Source of the DNA: Siphonodentalium dalli
Lineage: Eukaryota; Mollusca; Scaphopoda; Gadilida; Siphonodentaliidae
Reading direction: 5' to 3'
DNA length: 64,000 nt
Assembly: GCA_032622095.1 (NCBI GenBank)
Contig: CP136061.1
Span: 188,176,369-188,240,368 of the forward strand
Shown here one piece after another: positions 2,088-28,797 of this stretch (positions are counted from its first letter, which is position 1; each line of letters begins with the position of its first letter). Position numbers and translations under genes: made by a program. The notes under the pieces were generated by a model, which did no database searches, had not been told where the DNA came from, and was given only the letters and a program-made list of their open reading frames with translations.

Positions 2088-2261
2088 CGGCCCGTGAAAA
2101 GTTGACCTCGGATCTGAAAATTAATAGGCCCATGCCACCCCCTGGCCGAAAATACCCCCACATACCAAGTTTCATCGAAATCGGCTGGGCCGTTTTTGAG
2201 TTCATCGTTAACACACACACACCACACACACACACAGACAGAACTTCCAAAAATATATAAT
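2088..2261 (-). mobile_element. Truncated Helitron-like module 1 (type C, 5' end only)
   Basis: It ends on the plus strand with a CA-rich stretch, CAGACAGA and CCAAAAATATATAAT, which is the 5' terminus of type C in minus orientation. It also shares the text around AATTAATAGGCCCATGCC with the type C modules near 11,500 and 15,660. The hairpin/CTAG end is missing, so this is the broken outer edge of the array. Confidence 0.6.
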
Positions 2262-3074
2262 ACTAGCAGGTTAGCCCGCCACCGGCGGCTTGTCCGAAAC
2301 ATGACATTTTTATATATATTTTTTAAATTTTTAGCTCCACGCGTTTCAATAAGAAAAATTTGTACTCGGTAGCTCAACCAGTTTCCGAGATCTGGTCTGC
2401 GCATGAAAATTTGTACCCGGCGCAAGATACATTCACATGCCAAATTTCAAGTCGATAGCTCCACCCGTTTCCGAGATCTCGTCTGCGCATGCGCTGCACG
2501 GGCGTCGCACGGGCTCGGCGACCCGATAAAATGTGTACCCGGCGCAAGATACATTCACATAGCATATTTCAAGTCGATAGCTCCACCCGTTTCCGAGATC
2601 TCGTCTGCGCATGCGCTGCACGTGCGTCGCACGGGCTCGGCGACCCGATAAAATTTGTACCCGGCGCAAGATACATTCACATAGCAAATTTCAAGTCGAT
2701 AGCTCCACCCGCTTCCGAGATCTCGTCTGCGCATGCGCTGCACGGGCGTCGCACGGGCTCGCCAATACGACAACGACCACCGCCTGGTCAAACTACACAC
2801 ACGTACCAAGTTTCGTCCCGATCGGTCGAGAATCGTAGATTTGTATGAAGTACAACACACACACAAACATAAATATATAAGAGAGATATGTAAATTAGAT
2901 AGATTGTATTAAAATATATAGGAGAGATATGTAAATGATGTACACACCATTACTGGTGTTTGTCAAAGTTTAGTGGGGTATATCAATACTCATTCACGAT
3001 CATATCATTGAGGTCCGGAGGGTGTGGGCTATCTCTCGAATACAAGGAGTTTCTCAAAATATATAGAAGAGAAG
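2262..3074 (-). mobile_element. Helitron-like module 2 (type D)
   Basis: The minus-strand 3' end is hairpin GCCGCCGGTGGCGGGC (2274-2289), seven bases, then CTAG followed by T. The body holds two full and one partial 122-bp subrepeats (about 2403-2770), then a block with GTCCCGATCGGTCGAG and a tail with duplicated AGGAGAGATATGTAAAT-like text. The minus-strand 5' end is TCTTCTCTTCTATATATTTTG. No ORF for Rep or helicase is present. A near copy is module 19. Confidence 0.65.
2403..2770. repeat. 122-bp tandem subrepeats inside module 2
   Basis: The motif GATAAAATKTGTACCCGG recurs at 2525 and 2647, exactly 122 bp apart, with a shorter variant at about 2405. Each unit contains TCGATAGCTCCACCCG, TTTCCGAGATCTCGTCTG and the near-palindrome TGCGCATGCGC. 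Copy number differs between modules, as is common for core repeats in non-autonomous Helitron-type elements of bivalves. Confidence 0.85.
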
Positions 3075-4120
3075 ACTAGCAGGTTAGCCCGCCACTGGCG
3101 GCATTCGTCCCATGGCTTTGTTTCAGAAACATGACATTTTTGTAATAATTTGTTTTTATTTATTTATTTTTTTTATTTTTGAATATGAATTTAATGTTTT
3201 TTAAATTTAATATATTTTGTTTCTGAATTGTTTTTTTATTGTTAATTTTTTTTAATTTTAAACTGTTTTAATTAAATTGTAAATTGTTTTAATTAATTTT
3301 TTTGTTTCTGGCGGAAAAATTTACCCGTAGAAATCCCCCCTTCCTAGGAACGACAGACAACGCATTCTTTGTTTCGTGAATTCTCTCTACGATAACATTG
3401 CATTCAATTTAAAACAAACGCTTCCCGTCGGGAAATCTGTCTTCGGGTCGTTGTTGTTGGCATCACGGCTCCCCGAAAACTCTCACATTGCCGAAAACGT
3501 GTATTTAGTAATATCGTTGTTGTTGATATTTACGGCTTAGGGGCTATTTTCTTATTTAGCAAGTTTGAGCTCAATCGGTTAGAGTCTATAAAGGACACAC
3601 TCATATATATGACACTTCCCGTAGGTAGCAAGTTTGAGCTCAATCGGCATTCCCTGGAATTTCCCGTAGATTGGCAGATTCCAGTAGCTTTATAACGGTA
3701 TATCTGGGGAGAAATCTGATGCTATATTCGTGATTATCTGGGATGACTTCGGTATATATATACTGTAAAAACAAAGCGCGCCATCCGTGCTCGCAGGGAA
3801 TAAATTTCGAGCGATAACGTTTGCGTTCCCGTATAACTCTGCAGATGCGAATAACGTTGAATGGGAAACAGACGCTCTTTATAGAGATGCGTCAAAAACA
3901 AACGCTCATTAAATAATCACTTGATTAACCCCCGCCGTGCCTTTGCGATGATTTGAGATTGGAGAACGGGTGCTCTGAGATTCTCTAAACCGCGACCACG
4001 GTCGTGTCGGTGGGATTTGACACTTACATAGGAAGTTTGAGCTCAATCTTTACACGCGTTTTGGATTCTATGAAGTACACACACACACACACATATATAC
4101 GAAGTCTCAAAATATATAGT
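3075..4120 (-). mobile_element. Helitron-like module 3 (type E, 1,046 bp)
   Basis: The hairpin GCCGCCAGTGGCGGGC (3087-3102, minus strand) lies seven bases before CTAG. An AT-rich block follows (about 3135-3310), then a block with three copies of AAGTTTGAGCTCAAT, a (CA)n tract and the terminus TATATATTTTGAGACTTCG. No protein is encoded. The next module is an apparently identical copy of the same length. Confidence 0.7.
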
Positions 4121-5166
4121 ACTAGCAGGTTAGCCCGCCACTGGCGGCATTCGTCCCATGGCTTTGTTTCAGAAACATGACATTTTTGTAATAATTTGTT
4201 TTTATTTATTTATTTTTTTTATTTTTGAATATGAATTTAATGTTTTTTAAATTTAATATATTTTGTTTCTGAATTGTTTTTTTATTGTTAATTTTTTTTA
4301 ATTTTAAACTGTTTTAATTAAATTGTAAATTGTTTTAATTAATTTTTTTGTTTCTGGCGGAAAAATTTACCCGTAGAAATCCCCCCTTCCTAGGAACGAC
4401 AGACAACGCATTCTTTGTTTCGTGAATTCTCTCTACGATAACATTGCATTCAATTTAAAACAAACGCTTCCCGTCGGGAAATCTGTCTTCGGGTCGTTGT
4501 TGTTGGCATCACGGCTCCCCGAAAACTCTCACATTGCCGAAAACGTGTATTTAGTAATATCGTTGTTGTTGATATTTACGGCTTAGGGGCTATTTTCTTA
4601 TTTAGCAAGTTTGAGCTCAATCGGTTAGAGTCTATAAAGGACACACTCATATATATGACACTTCCCGTAGGTAGCAAGTTTGAGCTCAATCGGCATTCCC
4701 TGGAATTTCCCGTAGATTGGCAGATTCCAGTAGCTTTATAACGGTATATCTGGGGAGAAATCTGATGCTATATTCGTGATTATCTGGGATGACTTCGGTA
4801 TATATATACTGTAAAAACAAAGCGCGCCATCCGTGCTCGCAGGGAATAAATTTCGAGCGATAACGTTTGCGTTCCCGTATAACTCTGCAGATGCGAATAA
4901 CGTTGAATGGGAAACAGACGCTCTTTATAGAGATGCGTCAAAAACAAACGCTCATTAAATAATCACTTGATTAACCCCCGCCGTGCCTTTGCGATGATTT
5001 GAGATTGGAGAACGGGTGCTCTGAGATTCTCTAAACCGCGACCACGGTCGTGTCGGTGGGATTTGACACTTACATAGGAAGTTTGAGCTCAATCTTTACA
5101 CGCGTTTTGGATTCTATGAAGTACACACACACACACACATATATACGAAGTCTCAAAATATATAGT
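4121..5166 (-). mobile_element. Helitron-like module 4 (type E, 1,046 bp)
   Basis: Same length and, by eye, same sequence as module 3, joined directly to it. The junction reads CTAG then TACTATATATTTTG on the minus strand. That fits insertion of one element at an A/T step inside the 5' end of its neighbour. With module 5 it forms a two-module block repeated at 11,639-13,850. Confidence 0.7.
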
Positions 5167-6332
5167 ACTAGCAGGTTAGCCCGCCACCGGCGGCTTGTCC
5201 GAAACATGACATTTTTTTAATATTTGTTTTTAATTTTTAGCTCCACGCGTTTCAATAAGAAAAATTTGTACCCGGTAGCTCCACCCGTTTCCGAGATCTG
5301 GTCTGCGCATGCGCGAAGCTGGCGTCGCACGGACTCGGCGACCCGATAAAATTTGTACCCGGCGCAAGATACATTCACATAGCAAATTTCAAGTCGATAG
5401 CTCCACCCGTTTCCGAGATCTCGTCTGCGCATGCGCTGCACGGGCGTCGCATGGACTCGGCGACCCGATAAAATTTGTACCCGGTGCAAGATACATTCAC
5501 ATAGCAAATTTCAGGTCGATAGCTCCACCCGTTTCCGAGATCTGCCTTTCTGCATAATATTTCGAGCGATAACATTGCATTGAAATGTCAGACTCCCATC
5601 GTGAACCTCAACACGAAGTAAACACGTGTTTCGAGCGATAACATTGCATTGAAATGACTCCCATCGTGAACCTCAAGACGACGTAAAACACGTGTTGCGT
5701 TCTAGGAAATGCACTCAATGCAGATGCTAATAACGTTGACTTCGTATATATATATATAATGACGTTATTAACCCCGGCCGTGCCGTTTGAGCTGATTTTT
5801 ATGACTGGGAGTGGAGTACGGGTGCTCGGAGCTTCTGGAAAACGCGTGGACAACATCGTACGTGTTATTTTACCTTTAGATAGGAAGTTTGAGCTCAATC
5901 TGTCCAGCCGTTCCCGTCCTAATGTACTATTTCGAGCGATAACAATTGTCAGACTCCCATCGTGAACCTCAACACGAAGTAAACACGTGTTTCGAGCGAT
6001 AACATTGCATTGAAGTCAGACTCCCATCGTGGACCCCCAAGACGACGTAAACACGTGTTTGTTCCGGTATAACTTTGGAGACTCTGACTTCATATATATA
6101 TATAATGACGTTATTAACCCCGGCCGTGCCGTTTGAGCTGATTTCGATGACTGGGAGTGGATAAAGGGTGCTCAGAGCTTCTCGAAAACACATCTACGGC
6201 GGTGTCGGTGGGATTTTACACTTACATACAAAATTTGATCTCAATCTGTACACGCGTTTTGGATTCTATGAAGTACACACACACATATATATATACACAC
6301 ATATATACGAAGTCTCAAAATATATAGTATAG
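5167..6332 (-). mobile_element. Helitron-like module 5 (type F, 1,166 bp)
   Basis: It carries the hairpin GCCGCCGGTGGCGGGC, two 122-bp subrepeats (GATAAAATTTG at 5345 and 5467), then an imperfect internal duplication of about 370 bp. Each half of the duplication (from about 5560 and about 5928) contains TTTCGAGCGATAACA, CCATCGTG, AAACACGTGTTT and (TA)n. The 5' terminus in minus orientation is TCTATACTATATATTTTGAG. Confidence 0.7.
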
Positions 6333-7363
6333 ACTAGCAGGTTAGCCCGCCACCGGCGGCTTGTCCGAAACATGACATTTATTTAATTTTTTTTTTAATT
6401 TTTAGCTCCACGTGTTTCAATAAGACAAATTTGTACCCGGTAGCTCCACCCGTTTCCGAGATCTGGTCTGCGCATGCGCGAAGCTGGCGTCGCACGTACT
6501 CGGCGACCCGATAAAATTTGTACCCGGCGCAAGATACATTCACATAGCAAATTTCAGGTCGATAGCTCCACCCGTTTCCGAGATCTGCCTTTCTGCATAA
6601 TATTTCGAGCGATAACATTGCATTGAAATGTCAGACTCCCATCGTGAACCTCAACACGAAGTAAACACGTGTTTCGAGCGATAACATTGCATTGAAATGA
6701 CTCCCATCGTGAACCTCAAGACGACGTAAAACACGTGTTGCGTTCTAGGAAATGCACTCAATGCAGATGCTAATAACGTTGACTTCGTATATATATATAT
6801 AATGACATTATTAACCCCGGCCGTGCCGTTTGAGCTGATTTTTATGACTGGGAGTGGAGTACGGGTGCTCTGAGCTTCTGGAAAACGCGTGGACGACATC
6901 GTACGTGATATTTTACATTTAGATAGGAAGTTTGAGCTCAATCTGTCCAGCCGTTCCCGTCCTAATGTACTATTTCGAGCGATAACAATTGTCAGACTCC
7001 CATCGTGAACCTCAACACGAAGTAAACACGTGTTTCGAGCGATAACATTGCATTGAAGTCAGACTCCCATCGTGGACCCCCAAGACGACGTAAACACGTG
7101 TTTGTTCCGGTATAACTTTGGAGACTCTGACTTCATATATATATATAATGACGTTATTAACCCCGGCCGTGCCGTTTGAGCTGATTTCGATGACTGGGAG
7201 TGGATAAAGGGTGCTCAGAGCTTCTCGAAAACACGATTACGGCGGTGTCGGTGGGATTTTACACTTACATACAAAATTTGATCTCAATCTGTACACGCGT
7301 TTTGGATTCTATGAAGTACACACACACATATATATATACGAAGTCTCAAAATATATAGTATAG
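6333..7363 (-). mobile_element. Helitron-like module 6 (type F, short form)
   Basis: Same architecture as module 5 but 135 bp shorter, mainly because it has one 122-bp subrepeat instead of two. The remaining difference lies in TA/CA tract length. This is a within-array record of subrepeat loss or gain. Confidence 0.7.
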
Positions 7364-8529
7364 ACTAGCAGGTTAGCCCGCCACCGGCGGCTTGTCCGAA
7401 ACATGACATTTTTTTAATATTTGTTTTTAATTTTTAGCTCCACGCGTTTCAATAAGAAAAATTTGTACCCGGTAGCTCCACCCGTTTCCGAGATCTGGTC
7501 TGCGCATGCGCGAAGCTGGCGTCGCACGGACTCGGCGACCCGATAAAATTTGTACCCGGCGCAAGATACATTCACATAGCAAATTTCAAGTCGATAGCTC
7601 CACCCGTTTCCGAGATCTCGTCTGCGCATGCGCTGCACGGGCGTCGCATGGACTCGGCGACCCGATAAAATTTGTACCCGGTGCAAGATACATTCACATA
7701 GCAAATTTCAGGTCGATAGCTCCACCCGTTTCCGAGATCTGCCTTTCTGCATAATATTTCGAGCGATAACATTGCATTGAAATGTCAGACTCCCATCGTG
7801 AACCTCAACACGAAGTAAACACGTGTTTCGAGCGATAACATTGCATTGAAATGACTCCCATCGTGAACCTCAAGACGACGTAAAACACGTGTTGCGTTCT
7901 AGGAAATGCACTCAATGCAGATGCTAATAACGTTGACTTCGTATATATATATATAATGACGTTATTAACCCCGGCCGTGCCGTTTGAGCTGATTTTTATG
8001 ACTGGGAGTGGAGTACGGGTGCTCGGAGCTTCTGGAAAACGCGTGGACAACATCGTACGTGTTATTTTACCTTTAGATAGGAAGTTTGAGCTCAATCTGT
8101 CCAGCCGTTCCCGTCCTAATGTACTATTTCGAGCGATAACAATTGTCAGACTCCCATCGTGAACCTCAACACGAAGTAAACACGTGTTTCGAGCGATAAC
8201 ATTGCATTGAAGTCAGACTCCCATCGTGGACCCCCAAGACGACGTAAACACGTGTTTGTTCCGGTATAACTTTGGAGACTCTGACTTCATATATATATAT
8301 AATGACGTTATTAACCCCGGCCGTGCCGTTTGAGCTGATTTCGATGACTGGGAGTGGATAAAGGGTGCTCAGAGCTTCTCGAAAACACATCTACGGCGGT
8401 GTCGGTGGGATTTTACACTTACATACAAAATTTGATCTCAATCTGTACACGCGTTTTGGATTCTATGAAGTACACACACACATATATATATACACACATA
8501 TATACGAAGTCTCAAAATATATAGTATAG
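7364..8529 (-). mobile_element. Helitron-like module 7 (type F, 1,166 bp)
   Basis: Same length as module 5 and apparently identical in all stretches compared, including the duplicated 370-bp half-blocks. It is separated from module 5 by the shorter module 6. Confidence 0.7.
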
Positions 8530-9695
8530 ACTAGCAGGTTAGCCCGCCACCGGCGGCTTGTCCGAAACATGACATTTTTTTAATATTTGTTTTTAATTTT
8601 TAGCTCCACGCGTTTCAATAAGAAAAATTTGTACCCGGTAGCTCCACCCGTTTCCGAGATCTGGTCTGCGCATGCGCGAAGCTGGCGTCGCACGGACTCG
8701 GCGACCCGATAAAATTTGTACCCGGCGCAAGATACATTCACATAGCAAATTTCAAGTCGATAGCTCCACCCGTTTCCGAGATCTCGTCTGCGCATGCGCT
8801 GCACGGGCGTCGCATGGACTCGGCGACCCGATAAAATTTGTACCCGGTGCAAGATACATTCACATAGCAAATTTCAGGTCGATAGCTCCACCCGTTTCCG
8901 AGATCTGCCTTTCTGCATAATATTTCGAGCGATAACATTGCATTGAAATGTCAGACTCCCATCGTGAACCTCAACACGAAGTAAACACGTGTTTCGAGCG
9001 ATAACATTGCATTGAAATGACTCCCATCGTGAACCTCAAGACGACGTAAAACACGTGTTGCGTTCTAGGAAATGCACTCAATGCAGATGCTAATAACGTT
9101 GACTTCGTATATATATATATAATGACGTTATTAACCCCGGCCGTGCCGTTTGAGCTGATTTTTATGACTGGGAGTGGAGTACGGGTGCTCGGAGCTTCTG
9201 GAAAACGCGTGGACGACATCGTACGTGTTATTTTACCTTTAGATAGGAAGTTTGAGCTCAATCTGTCCAGCCGTTCCCGTCCTAATGTACTATTTCGAGC
9301 GATAACAATTGTCAGACTCCCATCGTGAACCTCAACACGAAGTAAACACGTGTTTCGAGCGATAACATTGCATTGAAGTCAGACTCCCATCGTGGACCCC
9401 CAAGACGACGTAAACACGTGTTTGTTCCGGTATAACTTTGGAGACTCTGACTTCATATATATATATAATGACGTTATTAACCCCGGCCGTGCCGTTTGAG
9501 CTGATTTCGATGACTGGGAGTGGATAAAGGGTGCTCAGAGCTTCTCGAAAACACATCTACGGCGGTGTCGGTGGGATTTTACACTTACATACAAAATTTG
9601 ATCTCAATCTGTACACGCGTTTTGGATTCTATGAAGTACACACACACACATATATATACACACATATATACGAAGTCTCAAAATATATAGTATAG
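8530..9695 (-). mobile_element. Helitron-like module 8 (type F, 1,166 bp)
   Basis: Type F with a few substitutions relative to modules 5 and 7, for example in the stretch near 9213. It matches module 12 at an exact offset of 4,155 bp and is the first module of the duplicated F-G-C block. Confidence 0.7.
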
Positions 9696-10918
9696 ACTAG
9701 CAGGTTAGCCCGCCACCGGCGGCTTGTCCGAAACATGACATTTTTTTATATATATATTTTTAATTTTTAGCTCCACGCGTTTCAATAAGAAAAATTTGTA
9801 CCCGGTAGCTCCACCCGTTTCCGAGATCTGGTCTGCGCATGCGCGAAGCTGGCGTCGCACGGGCTCGGCGACCCGATAAAATGTGTACCCGGCGCAAGAT
9901 ACATTCACATACCAAATTTCAAGTCGATAGCTCCACCCGTTTCCGATATCTCGTCTGCGCATGCGCTGCACGGGCGTCGCACGGGCTCGCCAATACGACA
10001 GCGACGACCACCTGGTCAAACTACACTCACGTACCAAGTTTCGTCCCGATCGGTAGAGGTGTTGGTATCTGATGCAAAAGACGAAATTGTGAGTGTTGGT
10101 CAATAGTCCCCGCCGTGAACCTCATCGTCGCAAAGAGCGGACAGTCAATTAACCCCGTTGTGAACCTCAATCACCAACGCGACGTAAACATGTGTTGCGT
10201 TCTAAAAATAGGAAAGCACTTTCTCTCTGCATAATTCTGCAGATGCTAATAACGTTGCTCCCCGTAGGTAGCAATATCGTTGTTGTTGATATTTACGGCT
10301 TGGGGGCTATTTTCTTATTTAGCAAGTTTGAGCTCAATCGGTTCGAGTCTATAAAGGACACACTCATATATATGACACTTCCCGTGGGTAGCAAGTTTGA
10401 GCTCAATCGGCATTCCCTGGAATTTCCCGTAGATTGGCAGATTCCAGTAGCTTTATAACGATATATCTGGGGAGAAATCTGATGCTATATTCGTGATTAT
10501 CTGGGATGATTTCGGTATATAACTATATACTGTAAAAACAAAGCGCGCCATCCGTGCTCGCAGGGTTGGTCAGAAACAAATGTTTTTTAAATTTAATGTA
10601 TGTTCCGTATAGTTCCGTATATCTCTCTGCAGATGCAAATAACGTTGAATGGCAAACAAACGCTCTTTATAGAGATGCGTCAAAAACAAACGCTCATTAA
10701 ATAATCACTTGATTAACCCCCGCCGTGCCTTTGCGGTGATTTGAGATTGGAGAACGGGTGCTCTGAGCTTCTCTAAACCTTGACCACGGTCGTGTCGGTG
10801 GGATTTGACACTTACATAGGAAGTTTGAGCTCAATCTTTACACGCGTTTTGGATTCTATGAAGTACACACACACACACACACATATATACGAAGTCTCAA
10901 AATATATAGTATAGATAG
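9696..10918 (-). mobile_element. Helitron-like module 9 (type G, F/E mosaic, 1,223 bp)
   Basis: It begins like type F (hairpin with GGT loop and a 122-bp subrepeat). It then passes through a private middle (about 10,050-10,260, with TTGTGAGTGTTGG and AATTAACCCCGTTGTGA). It ends like type E, with TTGAGCTCAATCGG twice and the terminus TCTATCTATACTATATATTTTG. It is a mosaic of module types. Confidence 0.65.
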
Positions 10919-11638
10919 ACTAGAAGGTGACCCGACTTCGTCCGGGCTTTGACCTTGAATTGTCCATTTTGAATGTCAAGGTCAAGTGGGGTCACGATTT
11001 GACCAGTCCAAAACACTGCCCGGACAAAAGTACCCGACAAACGTGCCCGTCGAAATCCATCCGGTTTTACCAGATTTGACCTTGAATTGATCATTTTGAA
11101 GGTCATGGTCAGGTCGGGGTCACGATATGACCCGTCCAAAACAATCAGTGGACAAAAGTAACCCCACGTATCAAATTTCGTCGAAATCCCATCAAAATTG
11201 GCGATTTGACCTTGAAGTTACCCGATGTCAAGGTCACGTCGCACGGGCAAATGCATATGCGTAAGAGACTCCCCATACGAAAGTACCCCCACATACCAAG
11301 TTTCATCGAAATCCCGTGATATTTGGGCGTTTGACCTTGAAATGACCCGATTTCAAGGTCAAAGTCACGTCGCACGGGAAAATTAATAGGCCTATATCAC
11401 TCCCCGGCCGAACTTACCTCCACATACCAAGTTTCATCGAAATCCCGTGATATTCGGGCGTTTGACCTTGAAATGACCCGATGTCAAGGTCACGTCGCAC
11501 GGACAAATTAATAGGCCCATGCCACCCCACGGCCGAAAATACCCCCACATACGAAGCTTCATCGAAATCGGGTCGGCCGTTTTTGAGTTCATCGCGAACA
11601 GACACACAGACAGACAGATCTTCCAAAATATATAATAG
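10919..11638 (-). mobile_element. Helitron-like module 10 (type C, GGTCA-rich, 720 bp)
   Basis: The minus-strand end is CCCGGACGAAGTCGGG, TCACCTT, then CTAG. The body is a degenerate tandem repeat built from TGACCTTGAA and TTCAAGGTCA in opposed pairs, each followed by CATACCAAGTTTCATCGAAATC-like text. The 5' end carries CAGACAGACAGATCTTCC and TATATATTTTGG. It has no coding capacity. Confidence 0.65.
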
Positions 11639-12684
11639 ACTAGCAGGTTAGCCCGCCACTGGCGGCATTCGTCCCATGGCTTTGTTTCAGAAACATGACA
11701 TTTTTGTAATAATTTGTTTTTATTTATTTATTTTTTTTATTTTTGAATATGAATTTAATGTTTTTTAAATTTAATATATTTTGTTTCTGAATTGTTTTTT
11801 TATTGTTAATTTTTTTTAATTTTAAACTGTTTTAATTAAATTGTAAATTGTTTTAATTAATTTTTTTGTTTCTGGCGGAAAAATTTACCCGTAGAAATCC
11901 CCCCTTCCTAGGAACGACAGACAACGCATTCTTTGTTTCGTGAATTCTCTCTACGATAACATTGCATTCAATTTAAAACAAACGCTTCCCGTCGGGAAAT
12001 CTGTCTTCGGGTCGTTGTTGTTGGCATCACGGCTCCCCGAAAACTCTCACATTGCCGAAAACGTGTATTTAGTAATATCGTTGTTGTTGATATTTACGGC
12101 TTAGGGGCTATTTTCTTATTTAGCAAGTTTGAGCTCAATCGGTTAGAGTCTATAAAGGACACACTCATATATATGACACTTCCCGTAGGTAGCAAGTTTG
12201 AGCTCAATCGGCATTCCCTGGAATTTCCCGTAGATTGGCAGATTCCAGTAGCTTTATAACGGTATATCTGGGGAGAAATCTGATGCTATATTCGTGATTA
12301 TCTGGGATGACTTCGGTATATATATACTGTAAAAACAAAGCGCGCCATCCGTGCTCGCAGGGAATAAATTTCGAGCGATAACGTTTGCGTTCCCGTATAA
12401 CTCTGCAGATGCGAATAACGTTGAATGGGAAACAGACGCTCTTTATAGAGATGCGTCAAAAACAAACGCTCATTAAATAATCACTTGATTAACCCCCGCC
12501 GTGCCTTTGCGATGATTTGAGATTGGAGAACGGGTGCTCTGAGATTCTCTAAACCGCGACCACGGTCGTGTCGGTGGGATTTGACACTTACATAGGAAGT
12601 TTGAGCTCAATCTTTACACGCGTTTTGGATTCTATGAAGTACACACACACACACACATATATACGAAGTCTCAAAATATATAGT
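11639..12684 (-). mobile_element. Helitron-like module 11 (type E, 1,046 bp)
   Basis: Same length as modules 3 and 4, with no difference noticed by eye. It sits between the two copies of the 3,109-bp F-G-C block. Together with module 12 it repeats modules 4-5 at an offset of 7,518 bp. Confidence 0.7.
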
Positions 12685-16817: not shown

Positions 16818-17878
16818 ACTAGCAGGTTAGCCCGCCACTGGCGGCATTCGTCCCATGGCTTTGTTTCAGAAACATGACATTTTTGTAATAATTTGTTTTT
16901 ATTTATTTATTTTTTTTATTTTTGAATATGAATTTAATGTTTTTTAAATTTAATATATTTTGTTTCTGAATTGTTTTTTTATTGTTAATTTTTTTTAATT
17001 TTAAACTGTTTTAATTAAATTGTAAATTGTTTTAATTAATTTTTTTGTTTCTGGCGGAAAAATTTACCCGTAGAAATCCCCCCTTCCTAGGAACGACAGA
17101 CAACGCATTCTTTGTTTCGTGAATTCTCTCTACGATAACATTGCATTCAATTTAAAACAAACGCTTCCCGTCGGGAAATCTGTCTTCGGGTCGTTGTTGT
17201 TGGCATCACGGCTCCCCGAAAACTCTCACATTGCCGAAAACGTGTATTTAGTAATATCGTTGTTGTTGATATTTACGGCTTAGGGGCTATTTTCTTATTT
17301 AGCAAGTTTGAGCTCAATCGGTTAGAGTCTATAAAGGACACACTCATATATATGACACTTCCCGTAGGTAGCAAGTTTGAGCTCAATCGGCATTCCCTGG
17401 AATTTCCCGTAGATTGGCAGATTCCAGTAGCTTTATAACGGTATATCTGGGGAGAAATCTGATGCTATATTCGTGATTATCTGGGATGACTTCGGTATAT
17501 ACCGAAGGTATATACTGTAAAAACAAAGCGCGCCATCCGTGCTCGCAGGGAATAAATTTCGAGCGATAACGTTTGCGTTCCCGTATAACTCTGCAGATGC
17601 GAATAACGTTGAATGGGAAACAGACGCTCTTTATAGAGATGCGTCAAAAACAAACGCTCATTAAATAATCACTTGATTAACCCCCGCCGTGCCTATGCGA
17701 TGATTTGAGATTGGAGAACGGGTGCACTGAGATTCTCTAAACCGCGACCACGGTCGTGTCGGTGGGATTTGACACTTACATAGGAAGTTTGAGCTCAATC
17801 TTTACACGCGTTTTGGATTCTATGAAGTACACACACACACACACACACACATCTATACGAAGTCTCAAAATATATAGT
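16818..17878 (-). mobile_element. Helitron-like module 17 (type E, 1,061 bp)
   Basis: Type E with a longer (CA)n tract. A small insertion forms the palindrome GGTATATACCGAAGGTATATAC near 17,494-17,515. This sub-type recurs in modules 18, 21, 27 and 28. Confidence 0.7.
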
Positions 17879-19085
17879 ACTAGCAGGTTAGCCCGCCACT
17901 GGCGGCATTCATCCCATGGCTTTGGTCGATCCATTAATTTTAGTTTTTCAATGTAACCCCGTACAGGACCGGGCTACTCAAAAAACAAATTTCAAGTCGA
18001 TAGCTCCACCCGTTTCCGAGATCTGGTCTGCGCATGCGCGTATCTGGCGTCGCACGGGCTCGGCGACCCGATAAAATTCGTATCCGGGGCAAGATACATT
18101 CACATACCAAATTTCAAGTCGATAGCTCCACCCGTTTCCGATATCTCGTCTGCGCATGCGCTGCACGGGCGTCGCACGGGCTCGCCAATACGACAGCGAC
18201 GACCACCTGATCAAACTACACTCACGTACCAAGTTTCGTCCCGATCGGTCGAGGTGTTGGTATCTGATGCAAAAGACGAAATTGTGAGTGTTGGTCAATA
18301 GTCCCCGCCGTGAACCTCATCGTCGCAAAGAGCGGACAGTCAATTAACCCCGTTGTGAACCTCAATCACCAACGCGACGTAAACATGTGTTGCGTTCTAA
18401 AAATAGGAAAGCACTTTCTCTCTGCATAATTCTGCAGATGCTAGTAACGTTGCTCCCCGTAGGTAGCAATATCGTTGTTGTTGATATTTACGGCTTGGGG
18501 GCTATTTTCTTATTTAGCAAGTTTGAGCTCAATCGGTTAGAGTCTATAAAGGACACACTCATATATATGACACTTCCCGTAGGTAGCAAGTTTGATCTCA
18601 ATCGGCATTCCCTGGAATTTCCCGTAGATTGGCAGATTCCAGTAGCTTTATAACGGTATATCTGGGGAGAAATCTGATGCTATATTCGTGATTATCTGGG
18701 ATGATTTCGGTATATACCGAAGGTATATACTGTAAAAACAGAGCGCGCCATCCGTGCCTGCAGGGAATAAATTTCGAGCGATAACGTTTGCGTTCCCGTA
18801 TAACTCTGCAGATGCGAATAACGTTGAATGGGAAAAAGACGCTCTTTATAGAGATGCGTCAAAAACAAACGCTCATTAAATAATCACTTGATTAACCCCC
18901 GCCGTGCCTATGCAGTGATTTGAGATTGGAGAACGGGTGCTCTGAGCTTCTCTAAACCGCGACCACGTTCGTGTCGGTGGGATTTGACACTTACATACGA
19001 AATTTGATCTCAATCTGTACACGCGTTTTGGATTCTATGAAGTACACACACACACATATACGAAGTCTCAAAATATATAGTATAG
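17879..19085 (-). mobile_element. Helitron-like module 18 (type I mosaic, 1,207 bp)
   Basis: It starts with the type E hairpin and then runs into a second, internal hairpin-like motif (CCCCGTACAGGACCGGG at about 17,957-17,973), suggesting fusion with another element's end. A 122-bp subrepeat, the type G middle and the type E 5' end follow. Confidence 0.65.
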
Positions 19086-19894
19086 ACTAGCAGGTTAGCC
19101 CGCCACCGGCGGCTTGTCCGAAACATGACATTTTTATATATATTTTTTTAATTTTTAGCTCCACGCGTTTCAATAAGAAAAATTTGTACCCGGTAGCTCC
19201 ACCAGTTTCTGATATCTGGTCTGCGCATGAAAATTTGTATCCGGCGCAAGATACATTCACATGCCAAATTTCAAGTCGATAGCTCCACCCGTTTCCGAGA
19301 TCTCGTCTGCGCATGCGCTGCACGGGCGTCGCACGGGCTCGGCGACCCGATAAAATTTGTACCCGGCGCAAGATACATTCACATAGCAAATTTCAAGTCG
19401 ATAGCTCCACCCGCTTCCGAGATCTCGTCAGCGCATGCGCTGCACGGGCGTCGCACGGGCTCGGCGACCCGATAAAATTTATACCCGGCGCAAGATACAT
19501 TCACATAGCAAATTTCAAGTCGATAGCTCCACCCGTTTCCGAGATCTCGTCTGCGCATGCGCTGCACGGGTGTCGCACGGGCTCGCCAATACGACAACGA
19601 CCACCGCCTGGTCAAACTACACAAAAGTACCAAGTTTCGTCCCGATCGGTCGAGAATCGTAGATTTGTATGAAGTACAACACACACACAAACATAAATAT
19701 ATAAGAGAGATATGTAAATTAGATAGATTGTATCAAAATATATAGGAGAGATATGTAAATGATCTACACACCATTACTGGTGTTTGTCAAAGTTTAGTGG
19801 GGTATATCAATACTCATTCACGATCATATCATTGAGGTCCGGAGGGTGTGGGCTATCTCTCGTATACAAGGAGTTCTCAAAATATATAGAAGAG
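19086..19894 (-). mobile_element. Helitron-like module 19 (type D, 809 bp)
   Basis: Near copy of module 2, about 16.8 kb away, with the same subrepeat layout and the same tail containing ATTACTGGTGTTTGTC. As at module 3, the next element is type E. Confidence 0.65.
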
Positions 19895-20961
19895 ACTAGC
19901 AGGTTAGCCCGCCACTGGCGGCATTCGTCCCATGGCTTTGTTTCAGAAACATGACATTTTTGTAATTATTTTGTTTTTATTTATTTTTGTTTTTTATTTT
20001 TGATTATGAATTTAATGTTTTTTAAATTTAATATATTTAATATATATTGTTAATTTTTTTTAATTTTAAATTGTTTTAATTAAATTGTAAATTGTTTTAA
20101 TAAATTTTTTTGTTTCTGGCGGAAAAATTTACCCGTAGAAATCCCCCCTTCCTAGGAACGACAGACAACGCATTCTTTGTTTCGTGAAATCTCTCTACGA
20201 TAACATTGCATTCAATTTAAAACAAACGCTTCCCGTCGGGAAATCTGTCTTCGGGTCGTTGTTGTTGGCATCACGGCTCCCCGAAAACTCTCACATTGCC
20301 GAAAACGTGTATTTAGTAATATCGTTGTTGTTGATATTTACGGCTTGGGGGCTAATTTCTTATTTAGCAAGTTTGAGCTCAATCGGTTCGAGTCTATAAA
20401 GGACACACTCATATATATGACACTTCCCGTGGGTAGCAAGTTTGAGCTCAATCGGCATTCCCTGGAATTTCCCGTAGATTGGCAGATTCCAGTAGCTTTT
20501 TGTAACGGTATATCTGGGGAGAAATCTGATGCTATATTCGTGATTATCTGGGATGATTTCGGTATATAACTATATACTGTAAAAACAAAGCGCGCCATCG
20601 TGCTCGCAGGGTTGGTCCGAAACAAATGTTTTTTTAAATTTAATGTATATGTTCCGTATATCTCTCTGCAGATGCAAATAGCGTTGAATGGCAAACAGAC
20701 GCTCTTTATAGAGATGCGTCAAAAACAAACGCTCATTAAATAATCACTTGATTAACCCACGCCGTGCCTTTGCGGTGATTTGAGATTGGAGAACGGGTGC
20801 TCTGAGCTTTTCTAAACTGCGACTACGGTCGTGTCGGTGGGATTTGACACTTACATAGGAAGTTTGAGCTCAATCTGTACACGCGTTTTGGATTCTATGA
20901 AGTACACACACACACACATACACACATATATACGAAGTCTCAAAATATATAGTATAGATAG
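19895..20961 (-). mobile_element. Helitron-like module 20 (type E variant, 1,067 bp)
   Basis: A diverged type E with a changed AT-rich block (about 19,965-20,110), where an AATTTAATATATTTAATATAT variant replaces the usual text. The 5' half matches type G (GTTCGAGTC, GTGGGTAGC), so it is itself mosaic. Confidence 0.65.
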
Positions 20962-22123
20962 ACTAGCAGGTTAGCCCGCCACTGGCGGCATTCGTCCCAT
21001 GGCTTTGGTCGATCCATTAATTTTAGTTTTTCAATGTAACCCCGTACAGGACCGGGCTACTCAAAAACCAAATTTCAAGTCGATAGCTCCACCCGTTTCC
21101 GAGATCTGGTCTGCCCATGCGCGTATCTGGCGTCGCACGGGCTCGGCGACCCGATAAAATTCGTATCCGGGGCAAGATACATTCACATACCAAATTTCAA
21201 GTCGATAGCTCCACCCGTTTCCGATATCTCGTCTGCGCATGCGCTGCACGGGCGTCGCACGGGCTCGCCAATACGACAGCGACGACCACCTGGTCAAACT
21301 ACACTCACGTACCAAGTTTCGTCCCGATCGGTCGAGGTGTTGGTATCTGATGCAAAAGACGAAATTGTGAGTGTTGGTCAATAGTCCCCGCCGAGAACCT
21401 CATCGTCGCAAAGAGCGGACAGTCAATTAACCCCGTTGTGACCCTCAATCACCAACGCGACGTAAACATGTGTTGCGTTCTAAAAATAGGAAAGCACTTT
21501 CTCTCTGCATAATTCTGCAGATGCTAATAACGTTGTTCCCCGTAGGTAGCAATGTCGTTGTTGTTGATATTTACGGCTTGGGGGCTATTTTCTTATTTAG
21601 CAAGTTTGAGCTCAATCGGTTAGAGTCTATAAAGGACACACTCATATATATGACACTTCCCGTAGGTAGCAAGTTTGAGCTCAATCGGCATTCCCTGGAA
21701 TTTCCCGCAGATTGGCAGATTCCAGTAGCTTTATAACGGTATATCTGGGGAGAAATCTGATGCTATATTCGTGATTATCTGGGATGATTTCGGTATATAC
21801 CGAAGGTATATACTGTAAAAACAGAGCGCGCCATCCGTGCTCGCAGGGAATAAATTTCGAGCGATAACGTTTGCGTTCCCGTACATAACTCTGCAGATGC
21901 GAATAACGTTGAATGGGAAACAGACGCTCTTTATAGAGATGCGTCAAAAACAAACGCTCATTAAATAATCACTTGATTAACCCCCGCCGTGCCTTTGCGA
22001 TGATTTGAGATTGGAGAACGGGTGCTCTGATCTTCTCTAAACCGCGACCACGTTCGTGTCGGTGGGATTTGACACTTACATAGGAAGTTTGAGCTCAATC
22101 TTTACACGCGTTTTGGATTCTAT

Positions 22124-22161
<38 letters not shown>

Positions 22162-22182
22162 CGAAGTCTCAAAATATATAGT
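20962..22182 (-). mobile_element. Helitron-like module 21 (type I, 1,221 bp)
   Basis: Same plan as module 18: type E hairpin, internal CCCCGTACAGGACCGGG, one 122-bp subrepeat, type G middle, type E 5' end with GGTATATACCGAAGGTATATAC and a long (CA)n tract. Confidence 0.65.
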
Positions 22183-23016
22183 ACTAGAAGGTGACCCGAC
22201 TTCGTCCGGGCTATTCAAAAACCAAATTTCAAGTCGATTGCTCCACCCGTTTCCTAGATCTGGTCTGCGCATGCGCGAAGCTGGTGTCGCACGTGCTCGG
22301 CGACCCGATAAAATTCGTATCCGGTGCAAGATACATTCACATACCAAATTTCAAGTCGATAGCTACACCCGTTTCCGAGATATATAGCCCAATGTCAATT
22401 TGCGGATACCTCGGCCGGTGATGACTATTTTCTTATTTAGCAAGTTTGAGCTCAATCGGTTAGAGTCTATAAAGGACACACTCATATATATGACACTTCC
22501 CGTAGGTAGCAAGTTTGAGCTCAATCGGCATTCCCTGGAATTTCCCGTAGATTGGCAGATTCCAGTAGCTTTATAACGGTATATCTGGGGAGAAATCTGA
22601 TGCTATATTCGTGATTATCTGGGATGATTTCGGTATATACCAAAGGTATATACTGTAAAAACAAAGCGCGCCATCCGTGCTCGCAGGGAATAAATTTCGA
22701 GCGATAACGTTTGCGTTCCCGTATAACTCTGCAGATGCCAATAACGTTGAATGGGAAACAGACGCTCTTTATAGAGATGCGTCAAAAACAAACGCTCATT
22801 AAATAATCACTTGATTAACCCCCGCCGTGCCTTTGCGGTGATTTGAGATTGGAGAACGGGTGAACTGAGCTTCTCTAAACCGCGACTACGGTCGTGTCGA
22901 TGGCATTTGACACTTACATAGGAAGTTTGAGCTCAATATGTACACGCGTTTTGGATTCTATGAAGTACACACACACACACACACACACATATATACGAAG
23001 TCTCAAAATATATAGT
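22183..23016 (-). mobile_element. Helitron-like module 22 (type J chimera, 834 bp)
   Basis: It has the hairpin and CTAG end of type C, then text from the 122-bp subrepeat family. A novel join (about 22,380-22,425, near TTTGCGGATACCTCGGCC) leads into the type E 5' half. It is the clearest single-copy chimera in the array. Confidence 0.65.
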
Positions 23017-23621
23017 ACTAGAAGGTGACCCGACTTCGTCCGGGCTTTGACCTTGAATTGTCCATTTTGAAGGTCAAAGTCAAGTGGGGTCACGATTCGA
23101 CCAGTCCAAAACACTGCCCGGACAAAAGTACCCGACAAACGTGCCCGTCGAAATCCATCCGGTTTTACCCGATTTGACCTTGAATTTATTATTTTGAAGG
23201 TCAAGGTCATGTCGGGGTCACGATTTGACCCGTCCAAAACACTCAGTTGACAAAAGTACCCCCATGTATCAAATTTCGTCGAAATCCCATCAAAATTGGC
23301 GATTTGACCTTGAATTGACCCGATTTCAAGGTCAAGGTCACGTCGCACGGGCAAATGGATATGCTTATGAGACTCCCCATACGAATGTACCCCCGCATAC
23401 CAAGTTTCATTGAAATCCCGTGATATTCGGGCGTTTGACCTTGAAATTACCCGATTTCAAGGTCAAGGTCACGTCGCACGGACAAATTAATATGCCTATG
23501 TTCGTCCCCGGCCGAAAATACCCACACATACCAAGTTTCATCGAAATCGGGTCTGCCGTTTTCGAGTTCATCGCGAACACACACACAGACAGACAGACAG
23601 ATCTTCCAAAATATATAATAG
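23017..23621 (-). mobile_element. Helitron-like module 23 (type C, 605 bp)
   Basis: A shorter type C with about one fewer GGTCA-repeat block than module 10. It carries (CA)n, CAGACAGACAGACAGATC and a TC start at the minus-strand 5' end. Confidence 0.65.
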
Positions 23622-24234
23622 ACTAGAAGGTGACCCGACTTCGTCCGGGCTTTGACCTTGAATTGTCCATTTTGAAGGTCAAGGTCAAGTGGGGTAACGA
23701 TTTGACCAGTCCAAAACACTGCCCGGACAAAAGTACCCGACAAACGTGCCCGTCGAAATCCATCCGGTTTTACCCGATTTAACCTTGAATTGATTATTTT
23801 GAAGGTCAAGGTCTGGTCGGGGTCACGATTGGACCCGTCCAAAACAATCGGTGAACAAAAGTAACCCAACGTATCAAATTTCGTCGAAATCCCATCAATA
23901 TTGGCGATTTGACCTTGAAGTTACCCGATTTCAAGGTCAAGGTCACGTCACACGGGCAAATGAATATGCTTATGAGACTCGCCATAAGAAAGTACCACCA
24001 CATACCAAGTTTCATCGAAATCCCGTGATATTCGGGCGTTTGACCTTGAAATGACCCGATTTCAAGGTCAAGGTGACGTCGCACGGACAAATTAATATGC
24101 CTCTGTTCGTCCCCGGCCGAAAATACCCCCACATACCAAGTTTCATCGAAATCGGTTGGGACGTTTTCGAGTTCATCGCGAACACACACACAGACACACA
24201 GACACACAGATCTTCCAAAATATATAATAGATAG
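23622..24234 (-). mobile_element. Helitron-like module 24 (type C, 613 bp)
   Basis: Tandem neighbour and close relative of module 23, diverged in the repeat blocks (GGTAACGATTTGACC, AATATTGGCG) and with a CAGACACACAGACACA tail. Confidence 0.65.
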
Positions 24235-25247
24235 ACTAGCAGATTAGCCCGCCACTGGCGGCATTCGTCCCATGGCTTTGTTTCAGAAACATGACATTTT
24301 TGTAATAATTTGTTTTTATTTATTTTTTTATTTTATTTTTGAATATGAATTTAATGTTTTTTAAATTTAATATATTTTGTTTCTGAATTGTTTTTTTATT
24401 GTTAATTTTTTTTAATTTTAAACTGTTTTAATTAAATTGTAAATTGTTTTAATTAATTTTTTTGTTTCTGGCGGAAAAATTTACCCGTAGAAATCCCCCC
24501 TTCCTAGGAACGACAGACAACGCATTCTTTGTTTCGTGAATTCTCTCTACGATAACATTGCATTCAATTTAAAACAAACGCTTCCCGTCGGGAAATCTGT
24601 CTTCGGGTCGTTGTTGTTGGCATCACGGCTCCCCGAAAACTCTCACATTGCCGAAAACGTGTATTTAGTAATATCGTTGTTGTTGATATTTACGGCTTAG
24701 GGGCTATTTTCTTATTTAGCAAGTTTGAGCTCAATCGGTTAGAGTCTATAAAGGACACACTCATATATATGACACTTCCCGTAGGTAGCAAGTTTGAGCT
24801 CAATCGTCATTCCCTGGAATTTCCCGTAGATTGGCAGATTCCAGTAGCTTTATAACGGTATATCTGGGGAGAAATCTGATGCTATATTCGTGATTATCTG
24901 GGATGACTTCGGTACATACCGAATACCGAAGGTATATACTGTAAAAACAAAGCGCGCCATCCGTGCTCGCAGGGAATAAATTTCGAGCGATAACGTTTGC
25001 GTTCCCGTATAACTCTGCAGATGCGAATAACGTTGAATGGGAAACAGACGCTCTTTATAGAGATGCGTCAAAAACAAACGCTCATTAAATAATCACTTGA
25101 TTAACCCCCGCCGTGCCTTTGCGATGATTTGAGATTGGAGAACGGGTGCTCTGAGATTCTCTAAACCGCGACCACGGTCGTGTCGGTGGGATTTGACACT
25201 TACATAGGAAGTTTGAGCTCAATCTTTACACGCGTTTTGGATTCTAT

Positions 25248-25287
<40 letters not shown>

Positions 25288-25312
25288 CGAAGTCTCAAAA
25301 TATATAGTATAG
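24235..25312 (-). mobile_element. Helitron-like module 25 (type E, 1,078 bp)
   Basis: Type E with GCAGATTAGCCC at the hairpin base, an expanded CGGTACATACCGAATACCG insertion and the longest (CA)n of the E modules (about 25,252-25,280). Confidence 0.7.
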
Positions 25313-26367
25313 ACTAGCAGGTTAGCCCGCCACTGGCGGCATTCGTCCCATGGCTTTGTTTCAGAAACATGACATTTGTGTAATAATTTGTTTTTATTTT
25401 TTCTTTTTTTTTTATTTTTGAATATGAATTTAATGTTTTTTAAATTTAATATATTTTGTTTCTGAATTGTTTTTTTATTGTTAATTTTTTTTAATTTTAA
25501 ACTGTTTTAATTAAATTGTAAATTGTTTTAATTAATTTTTTTGTTTCTGGCGGAAAAATTTACCCGTAGAAATCCCCCCTTCCTAGGAACGACAGACAAC
25601 GCATTCTTTGTTTCGTGAATTCTCTCTACGATAACATTGCATTCAATTTAAAACAAACGCTTCCCGTCGGGAAATCTGTCTTCGGGTCGTTGTTGTTGGC
25701 ATCACGGCTCCCCGAAAACTCTCACATTGCCGAAAACGTGTATTTAGTAATATCGTTGTTGTTGATATTTACGGCTTAGGGGCTATTTTCTTATTTAGCA
25801 AGTTTGAGCTCAATCGGTTAGAGTCTATAAAGGACACACTCATATATATGACACTTCCCGTAGGTAGCAAGTTTGAGCTCAATCGGCATTCCCTGGAATT
25901 GCCCGTAGATTGGCAGATTCCAGTAGCTTTATAACGGTATATCTGGGGAGAAATCTGATGCTATATTCGTGATTATCTGGGATGACTTCGGTATATACTG
26001 TAAAAACAAAGCGCGCCATCCGTGCTCGCAGGGAATAAATTTCGAGCGATAACGTTTGCGTTCCCGTATAACTCTGCAGATGCGAATAACGTTGAATGGG
26101 AAACAGACGCTCTTTATAGAGACGCGTCAAAAACAAACGCTCATTAAATAATCACTTGATTAACCCCCCGCCGTGCCTTTGCGATGATTTGAGATTGGAG
26201 AACGGGTGCTCTGAGATTCTCTAAACCGCGACCACGGTCGTGTCGGTGTGATTTGACACTTACATAGGAAGTTTGAGCTCAATCTTTACACGCGTTTTGG
26301 ATTCTATGAAGTACACACACACACACACACACATATATACGAAGTCTCAAAATATATAGTATAGAAG
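25313..26367 (-). mobile_element. Helitron-like module 26 (type E, 1,055 bp)
   Basis: Tandem type E copy next to module 25. It lacks the inserted CCGAAGG palindrome and has a short T-tract change at about 25,390. Confidence 0.7.
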
Positions 26368-27564
26368 ACTAGCAGGTTAGCCCGCCACTGGCGGCATTCG
26401 TCCCATGGCTTTGGTCGATCCATTAATTTTAGTTTTTCAATGTAACCCCATACAGGACCGGGCTACTCAAAAACCAAATTTCAAGTCGATAGCTCCACCC
26501 GTTTCCGAGATCTGGTCTGCCCATGCGCGTATCTGGCGTCGCACGGGCTCGGCGACCCGATAAAATTCGTATCCGGGGCAAGATACATTCACATACCAAA
26601 TTTCAAGTCGATAGCTCCACCCGTTTCCGATATCTCGTCTGCGCATGCGCTGCACGGGCGTCGCACGGGCTCGCCAATACGACAGCGACGACTACCTGGT
26701 CAGACTACACTCACGTACCAAGTTTCGTCCCGATCGGTCGAGGTGTTGGTATCTGATGCAAAAGACGAAATTGTGAGTGTTGGTCAATAGTCCCCGCCGT
26801 GAACCTCATCGTCGCAAAGAGCGGACAGTCAATTAACCCCGTTGTGACCCTCAATCACCAACGCGACGTAAACATGTGTTGCGTTCTAAAAATAGGAAAG
26901 CACTTTCTCTCGGCATAATTCTGCAGATGCTAATAACGTTGTTCCCCGTAGGTAGCAATGTCGTTGTTGTTGATATTTACGGCTTGGGGGCTATTTTCTT
27001 ATTTAGCAAGTTTGAGCTCAATCGGTTAGAGTCTATAAAGGACACACTCATATATATGACACTTCCCGTAGGTAGCAAGTTTGAGCTCAATCGGCATTCC
27101 CTGGAATTTCCCGTAGATTGGCAGATTCCAGTAGCTTTATAACGGTATATCTGGGGAGAAATCTGATGCTATATTCGTGATTATCTGGGATGATTTCGGT
27201 ATATACCGAAGGTATATACTGTAAAAACAGAGCGCGCCATCCGTGCTCGCAGGGAATAAATTTCGAGCGATAACGTTTGCGTTCCCGTACATAACTCTGC
27301 AGATGCGAATAACGTTGAATGGGAAAAAGACGCTCTTTATAGAGATGCGTCAAAAACAAACGCTCATTAAATAATCACTTGATTAACCCCCGCCGTGCCT
27401 ATGCGGTGATTTGAGATTGGAGAACGGGTGCTCTGATCTTCTCTAAACCGCGACCACGTTCGTGTCGGTGGAATTTGACACTTACATAGGAAGTTTGAGC
27501 TCAATCTTTACACGCGTTTTGGACACACACACATATATACGAAGTCTCAAAATATATAGTATAG
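26368..27564 (-). mobile_element. Helitron-like module 27 (type I, 1,197 bp)
   Basis: Type I like modules 18 and 21. The usual GATTCTATGAAGTA before the CA tract is deleted (about 27,523), leaving a very short (CA)n. Confidence 0.65.
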
Positions 27565-28728
27565 ACTAGCAGGTTAGCCCGCCACTGGCGGCATTCGTCC
27601 CATGGCTTTGGTCGATCCATTAATTTTAGTTTTTCAATGTAACCCCGTACAGGACCGGGCTACTCAAAAACCAAATTTCAAGTCGATAGCTCCCCCCGTT
27701 TCCGAGATCTGGTCTGCCCATGCGCGTATCTGGCGTCGCACGGGCTCGGCGACCCGATAAAATTCGTATCCGGGGCAAGATACATTCACATACCAAATTT
27801 CAAGTCGATAGCTCCACCCGTTTCCGATATCTCGTCTGCGCATGCGCTGCACGGGCGTCGCACGGGCTCGCCAATACGACAGCGACGACCACCTGGTCAA
27901 ACTACACTCACGTACCAAGTTTCGCCCCGATCGGTCGAGGTGTTGGTATCTGATGCAAAAGACGAAATTGTGAGTGTTGGTCAATAGTCCCCGCCGTGAA
28001 CCTCATCGTCGCAAAGAGCGGACAGTCAATTAAACCCCGTTTGTGACCCTCAATCACCAACGCGACGTAAACATGTGTTGCGTTCTAAAAATAGGAAAGC
28101 ACTTTCTCTCTGCATAATTCTGCAGATGCTAATAACGTTGTTCCCCGTAGGTAGCAATGTCGTTGTTGTTGATATTTACGGCTTGGGGGCTATTTTCTTA
28201 TTTAGCAAGTTTGAGCTCAATCGGTTAGAGTCTATAAAGGACACACTCATATATATGACACTTCCCGTAGGTAGCAAGTTTGAGCTCAATCGGCATTCCC
28301 TGGAATTTCCCGTAGATTGGCAGATTCCAGTAGCTTTATAACGGTATATCTGGGGAGAAATCTGATGCTATATTCGTGATTATCTGGGATGATTTCGGTA
28401 TATACCGAAGGTATATACTGTAAAAACAGAGCGCGCCATCCGTGCTCGCAGGGAATAAATTTCGAGCGATAACGTTTGCGTTCCCGTACATAACTCTGCA
28501 GATGCGAATAACGTTGAATGGGAAAAAGACGCTCTTTATAGAGATGCGTCAAAAACAAACGCTCATTAAATAATCACTTGATTAACCCCCGCCGTGCCTA
28601 TGCGGTGATTTGAGATTGGAGAACGGGTGCTCTGATCTTCTCTAAACCGCGACCACGTTCGTGTCGGTGTGATTTGACACTTACATAGGAAGTTTGAGCT
28701 CAATCTTTACACGCGTTTTGGATTCTAT

Positions 28729-28768
<40 letters not shown>

Positions 28769-28797
28769 CGAAGTCTCACAATATATAGTATAGATAG
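27565..28797 (-). mobile_element. Helitron-like module 28 (type I, first of the array in minus orientation)
   Basis: Tandem type I copy. Its minus-strand 5' end passes through TATATATTGTGAG (an A-to-C change on the plus strand) into GATA and then a long (TA)n. It therefore marks the edge of the array and the exact end is uncertain by some bases. Confidence 0.65.

Follow-up and report, generated by a model that had tools for sequence, protein, structure and literature searches.

A tandem array of non-autonomous Helitrons in Siphonodentalium dalli, probably grown mainly by insertion at resident 5′ borders

How do transposable elements of several families come to lie head to tail in a single orientation, each joined directly to the next? 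This question is raised by a 64,000-nucleotide (nt) stretch of the Siphonodentalium dalli genome, positions 188176369-188240368 of contig CP136061.1 (termed C1; the host genome has 2.23 Gb in 9 contigs). The whole stretch is referred to as the window. It carries a tandem array of Helitron-like modules on its minus strand. The array is probably a pile-up of non-autonomous Helitrons that arose mainly because elements inserted repeatedly at the 5′ border of those already resident, with later local duplications as well.

Organization of the array

The array is confirmed. Window positions 2263-28802 hold 27 complete modules of 506 to ~1,237 bp in eight groups (A-H), and every one of the 27 CTAG 3′ ends directly abuts the 5′ terminus of the adjoining module, all in the same orientation. 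A preliminary description of this DNA had given 28 modules in one orientation, with CTAG-to-terminus joins, at 2088..28797. Orientation and joins hold at 27/27 junctions, but one of the 28 modules (2088-2262) is truncated and without a CTAG end. The left 175 nt are thus a partial element, and the right end is corrected to 28802, where the outermost module M27 ends (TCTATCTATCTATAC), 5 bases past 28797. (M27 was cut at 28797 in the scripts.) There are 42 CTAG sequences in window 1800-29500; 27 are junctions, located at the lower coordinate of each of M01 to M27 in the list below, and the 15 others are internal to modules or outside the array.

The 5′ ends fall into four types (alpha, TACTATATATTTTGAGACTTCG; beta; gamma; delta) and the 3′ ends into three, and these occur in several combinations. 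Alpha ends are preceded by 0, 1 or 2 copies of TCTA, and by 3 copies at M27; n denotes the number of TCTA copies in front of the alpha 5′ end. M21 consists of a B/D-like 5′ part joined to a type-2 3′ end. The modules had been described as starting with TC and ending with CTAG on the minus strand. CTAG closes 27/27 complete modules, but TC opens 21/28 modules and TA the other seven (M00p, M02, M03, M10, M16, M20 and M21); the TA starts are explained as loss of the leading TCTA.

M00p, 2088-2262, minus: first 175 nt of a family A element, starting TATTATATA, TCTA missing; 3′ end lost
M01, 2263-3075, minus: family C; 5′ type beta, 3′ type 1
M02, 3076-4121, minus: family B, n=0, starting TACTATATA; identical to M03 and M10
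M03, 4122-5167, minus: family B, n=0
M04, 5168-6333, minus: family F, n=1
M05, 6334-7364, minus: family G (F-like), n=1
M06, 7365-8530, minus: family F, n=1; identical to M04
M07, 8531-9696, minus: family F, n=1
M08, 9697-10919, minus: family D, n=2
M09, 10920-11639, minus: family A; 5′ gamma, 3′ type 2
M10, 11640-12685, minus: family B, n=0; the order B-F-D-A of M10-M13 repeats that in M03-M09
M11, 12686-13851, minus: family F, n=1
M12, 13852-15074, minus: family D, n=2
M13, 15075-15794, minus: family A
M14, 15795-16300, minus: family E; 5′ delta, 3′ type 3; a short element related to the autonomous Helitron of locus L065 (see below)
M15, 16301-16818, minus: family E
M16, 16819-17879, minus: family B, n=0
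M17, 17880-19086, minus: family D, n=1
M18, 19087-19895, minus: family C
M19, 19896-20962, minus: family B, n=2
M20, 20963-22183, minus: family D, n=0
M21, 22184-23017, minus: chimera H, n=0
M22, 23018-23622, minus: family A
M23, 23623-24235, minus: family A with one extra TCTA
M24, 24236-25313, minus: family B, n=1
M25, 25314-26368, minus: family B, n=1 plus TCT
M26, 26369-27565, minus: family D, n=1
M27, 27566-28802, minus: family D, outermost 5′ element, n=3 (TCTA-TCTA-TCTA-TAC); adjoins a TA microsatellite

Identity of the modules and an autonomous partner

A canonical Helitron has a 5′-TC start, a CTRR-3′ end and a short hairpin ~10 nt before that end, inserts between A and T without target duplication, and has no terminal inverted repeats. 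The identity of the modules as Helitrons is supported. They display TC/CTAG ends and insert mostly at A|T without duplication (see below), and M14 and M15 have the same termini as an element that encodes a RepHel protein. The preliminary description had pointed to an autonomous Rep/helicase Helitron with common termini as the partner to look for, and such an element was found in L065 (L numbers denote fetched loci).

L065 is a 9.6-kb stretch with an 8.7-kb autonomous module inside another array. The module opens TCTCATATATATTTTGAAGACC after an 11-nt remnant, closes ...CATCGGCTAG, and has an open reading frame of 1,614 amino acids (aa) with Helitron_like_N at 519-698 and PIF1 at 1159-1369. The protein aligns with Helraiser (PDB 7lcc) over 157-1587 (E=2.4e-271). 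M14 displays 85% identity to nt 12-359 of L065 and 97% to its last 33 nt, and both ends of M14 and M15 (family E) are common to the autonomous element. A partner with matching termini is shown for family E only; the other families have the 5′ TATATATTTTG motif and CTAG in common with the rest. A search for PF14214 (Helitron_like_N), with 150 of 457 candidates scored, gave at least 151 matches in the host genome, many of them inside long open reading frames.

The palindromes CCGCC-RGT-GGCGG and CCCGGAC..GTCGGG are present at 3′ ends, and DNA folding of the last 45 nt of four representatives gave z-scores of only -0.24 to -1.78, i.e. a weak hairpin signal. Terminal inverted repeats were not seen by eye, no systematic test having been made.

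Helentrons and HINEs are recognized by T-rich or TT insertion sites and subterminal inverted repeats. This assignment was rejected for the modules, which insert mostly at A|T before TATATA and end in CTAG. A second, weaker group of Helitron_like_N matches (~90-110 bits), mostly in frames of 1,835-2,864 aa and thus longer than the 1.6-kaa (thousand aa) group, is possibly Helentron-like.

Modules in window 2406-27923 hold internal tandem repeats, with 122-bp units in families C, D, E and F and 125-131-bp units in family A. Internal repeats of this kind are typical of rolling-circle elements with satellite monomers.

An exact 18-mer search of viral contigs gave no match, and neither did blastn against phages or megablast against plasmids with window 9697-12685. 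Rfam and tRNA searches of the window gave no hits. Pfam gave no match for 6/8 window open reading frames of at least 150 aa (those at 1988-2446 and 54717-55193 were left out).

Abundance in the genome

The window array is one of many in the host genome. The type-1 3′ terminus, which is the main type, has 16,803 genome copies at <=2 mismatches (reversed-pattern control, 27), and the exact alpha/type-1 junction is found 4,050 times (control, 0). Thus the junctions are not due to chance. Alpha starts stand immediately behind CTAG in 67% of the 5,853 exact alpha starts counted (1,766 with n=0 and 2,179 with n=1), and stacking is therefore the usual fate of the alpha type in this genome. An array of this scale had been called unusual; with junctions by the thousand in the genome, it is not unique to this locus.

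At C1:13715580-13757769, 19 type-1 3′ ends are located on one strand in ~42 kb, with an autonomous Helitron inside (13738714-13748290 read).

Host target sites and unoccupied sites

Loci for the flank analysis were taken from the start of contig C1 and were partly selected as solos or dimers. They contain 111 rows of 3′ ends, some of which are the same end matched or fetched twice. A loose filter, which also discarded host flanks resembling the elements' own ends (e.g. L017), left 34 host-facing rows with 26 distinct flanks. In 23/26 of these T follows directly after CTAG, and TATATA is present at +3..+12 past the cut in 18/26, compared with 35/3,360 (1.0%) background A|T sites (binomial p=3e-30). 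Removing the three flanks that are (TA)n, the two CCCG ones and the one that is a mutated own end leaves 15/20. The preferred target consensus is A|TNNTATATAWW. Several host flanks resemble TATA boxes by sequence alone (TATATAAAAGAG, TATATAAACG).

Insertion between A and T, which the preliminary description had left to be examined at empty sites, is borne out by unoccupied copies of the targets. When the two flanks of an insertion were joined, contiguous unoccupied copies were found for 6 of 11 sites, without target duplication and mostly at A|T. These are L010, L013, L017 and L019 (40 of 6,372 candidates scored) and L011 and L026 (40 of 741 scored). The L013 empty site is identical at 120/120 positions. 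Those of L026 (up to 88%) and L011 (86%, one place) have equal lengths across the join.

The L017 site, TATAG|TATTATATAATTG, is in a repeat family, several copies of which (97-100%) are unoccupied. The L026 element is inside a partly palindromic repeat family, both strands of which match the same places, and ~forty unoccupied places at 84-88% are among those scored. L006 and L022 are paralogues of one host site (~97%); at this common target L006 has one Helitron module and L022 has two.

Resident 5′ termini as probable targets

Several 5′ termini of the elements contain the TATA-like stretch too, about as far in as it lies in host targets. The 5′ ends were scored as targets with a matrix built from the host flanks and were ranked against background A|T sites. 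Gamma, gamma n=0, alpha n=0 and two TCTAC 5′ ends are in the top 0.1-2.1% of background sites, and a cut at TCTA^TAC leaves a target motif in the top 0.6%.

A newcomer could join a resident element in two ways. It may insert at the A|T just before the TC of the resident, which would give CTAG|TCTA..., or at the internal TCTA^TACTATATA, which would give CTAG|TACTATATA and leave the TCTA ahead of the newcomer. Both joins would recreate the target at the outer edge, so that the array would grow 5′-ward, one element per step. The transposase may be supplied by the RepHel of an L065-type autonomous element or a close relative.

The distribution of TCTA is consistent with the second type of join. 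Residents that start TACTATATA are without the leading TCTA that is present in their solo kin. In complete arrays, an extra outer TCTA accompanies an n=0 resident in 3/3 cases (L011, L013, L026), compared with 2/19 arrays without such a resident (p=0.0065; p=0.0088 after dropping two duplicated loci). A hand count of the outermost ends that were read gives 7/8 with an n=0 resident and 4/27 without (p=0.0003). In L011 the extra TCTA stands in front of an element from a different family than the n=0 resident. The flanks of L011, L013 and L026, when joined without the extra TCTA, fit the empty copies with equal lengths on both sides. In a test of neighbours on C1, the next downstream alpha start is n=0 after 10/15 starts with n>=2 and after 14/39 with n=1 (p=0.042).

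It should be noted how these counts were made. The complete-array count leaves out L003 (3′ flank unclear), L014 at 5929 (behind an unrecognised CTAG) and four C-preceded rows (L014 at 6175, L017 at 6305, L022 at 1844, and L065), which mostly represent an internal family-C motif. The outermost-end count excludes L001, L015 and L020 (outer end unread), L021 and L064 (5′ end not followed), and L025/L041, L028/L042, L029/L043, L046, L047, L051, L054 and L055 (outer end not reached). L053, which is inside another element, and L057, which has an irregular TCTA/TCTTA run, were counted as having the extra copy.

The variable number of TCTA copies might instead be plain microsatellite slippage and carry no information on insertion. 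Two complete solos (L007 and L009) do have n=2, the TCT variants in M25 and M01 are not whole TCTA units, and AGA and TAGAAGA variants occur in other arrays. Slippage does not account for the association of an outer extra TCTA with an inner n=0 resident in both counts, nor for the high rank of the motif left by a cut at TCTA^TAC, and as a full explanation it has little probability. The TCT variants, together with four extras that have no visible n=0 resident, indicate that slippage or unseen residents also matter.

In the window itself the TCTA balance is exact (2 vs 2) only if each set of duplicated modules is counted once and families C and E are taken as neutral. It is feasible in 17-50% of shuffles, and both feasible and balanced in 1.4-2.1% of resampled series. 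The balance is compatible with outward growth but too flexible to decide, and for this reason the dimers elsewhere were used.

Growth of the array and local duplication

Several modules are nearly or fully identical. M02, M03 and M10 show 0 differences, M04, M06, M07 and M11 differ by 0-2, M08 and M12 by 2, and M09 and M13 by 1. The segments M07-M09 and M11-M13 have 99.8-100% identity, and the order B-F-D-A is repeated. Differences between M10 and M16 are confined to element positions 26-363. The near-identical neighbour blocks may have arisen later through local duplication, either by unequal exchange or as composite rolling-circle copies. The breakpoints of the blocks gave no separation of unequal exchange from composite transposition.

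Termination bypass is the usual reading of such arrays: rolling-circle replication continues beyond CTAG, and a single event produces concatemers or composite copies. Helraiser forms circles with a precise CTAG/TC junction, as described in the available part of PMC4778049. In the window, a four-module order is repeated and same-family neighbours are found at 6/27 junctions (M02-M03, M06-M07, M14-M15, M22-M23, M24-M25, M26-M27), slightly more than the ~3.9 expected for random order at the given family sizes. However, 21/27 adjacent pairs are from different groups (F and G counted apart). Under bypass there is also no reason to expect a TCTA that one element lacks to turn up before an element of another family, as in L011, or host sites and 5′ termini to have a TATA-like target in common. 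As the main source of the array it is unlikely.

A few initial junctions could also have been amplified into a satellite-like array by unequal crossing-over or gene conversion. This would fit the identity of M02, M03 and M10, the 0-2 differences among the other copies and the repeated block order, and the restriction of M10/M16 differences to positions 26-363 would allow exchange in the remainder. Crossing-over, however, could not have produced the first junctions. It also leaves unexplained the solos and dimers that occupy different host sites with empty paralogues, and the thousands of junctions (counted as junctions, not loci). It is thus quite improbable as the principal process.

Stepwise insertion is favored by target mimicry, the TCTA association, the empty sites and the neighbour test taken together. 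Several observations weigh against it. Delta (7.4%), alpha n=1 (14.6%), beta (29%) and alpha n=2 (55%) are moderate or poor targets, so mimicry does not account for all junctions. Not all host targets are A|T (L017 is G|T, L026 is A|A), and no empty copy was found for L004, L006, L008, L012 and L016 among the candidates scored. An extra TCTA without a visible n=0 resident is present in 4/27 arrays or solos (L002, L007, L009, L060), which implies that slippage also happens or that the n=0 resident is unseen. In L049 the outermost end is without the extra copy, which sits one element further in. There are 871 alpha starts with n>=2 and 1,766 with n=0, which gives no balance from alpha alone, extras on beta, gamma and delta ends being outside this count. 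The neighbour test gives p=0.08 without one large array, and the TCTA balance in the window is off by one over all modules (3 vs 2). The identity of M02, M03 and M10 and the likeness of M07-M09 and M11-M13 require a duplication process besides insertion. In addition, Helraiser insertions are not clustered round donor sites (PMC4778049, section 10, as far as the available text goes).

The preliminary description had offered repeated targeting of element ends and rolling-circle read-through as possible origins. The first is the better supported, by TCTA transfer and target mimicry; the near-identical blocks still call for read-through or recombination.

A more tentative proposal is that the conserved 5′ terminus (TCTATACTATATAWW and kin) serves both as start signal and as a copy of the TATA-like site preferred by the transposase. 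Mimicry would then be built into these Helitrons, which would stack on themselves and seed satellite-like arrays, and integration may even be guided by the host TATA-binding machinery. If this is true, each insertion remakes a hot target at its own 5′ edge.

Growth by stepwise insertion would make the order of events readable from four bases, i.e. a TCTA that is lost by the resident, gained before the newcomer and unneeded by the empty site. Array growth becomes testable in any genome and target choice is tied to terminal sequence. It also provides a simple way in which a dispersed transposon could become a satellite-like array.

Other arrays in the window

An older, diverged small array of the same kind is also present, with ends determined by eye:

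32155-33041, minus: elements 33041-32651 and 32650-32155, CTAG-joined, then a TATTATATATTT remnant

A second, unrelated tandem array (46065-64000) has units of 1,241-1,268 bp and runs to the window end. It has two subtypes that are ~90% alike; within one subtype, copies are up to 99.9% alike. Internal ~255-bp repeats are ~70% alike.

Relation to known systems

Tandem Helitron arrays themselves are already known; the self-targeting footprint seems to be new. Searches of an open-access library found no statement on 5′-end target mimicry or TCTA transfer, although subscription papers could hold one. The words tandem, head-to-tail, nested and adjacent are absent from PMC3789558.

The closest comparison is with Helibat1/Helraiser, whose RepHel is homologous to that of L065 over ~1,430 aa. 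The available text of PMC4778049 describes 5′-TC and CTAG-3′ ends, A|T insertion with a preference for AT-rich DNA that is greatest on the 3′ flank, and head-to-tail junctions, which Helraiser forms in circles. It also reports an internal AT cut in vitro on the bottom strand of Helraiser's own left end, and this fits a left end that is able to act as a target. In contrast, the arrays here combine several families and seem to extend at the 5′ border, whereas that text gives the Helraiser preference as AT-rich, names no TATA motif and reports an absence of local hopping.

Maize Helitrons display similar termini, with 5′ ends TCTATACTA/TCTCTACTA and CTAG|T 3′ ends (PMC10095026, in the part available). 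Oyster Helitrons and Helentrons, in the accessible portion of PMC8268682, include non-autonomous rolling-circle elements with microsatellite and internal tandem repeats, comparable to the 122-131-bp repeats found here; the oyster tandem units, however, are monomers inside an element, and here the units are whole elements.

Head-to-tail clusters like the present one are described for bat, silkworm and plants, including centromeric Helitrons (PMC5876387, PMC4067079 and PMC10095026, each in part), and distantly related Helitrons are directly adjacent in bat and maize (PMC4067079, section 15). As far as the sections available show, such arrays have been ascribed to bypassed termination or rolling-circle amplification (PMC4067079, PMC5876387, PMC8268682). 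The amplification described in rice involves truncated elements, whereas the array in the window consists of full-length mixed modules with a footprint of stepwise insertion.

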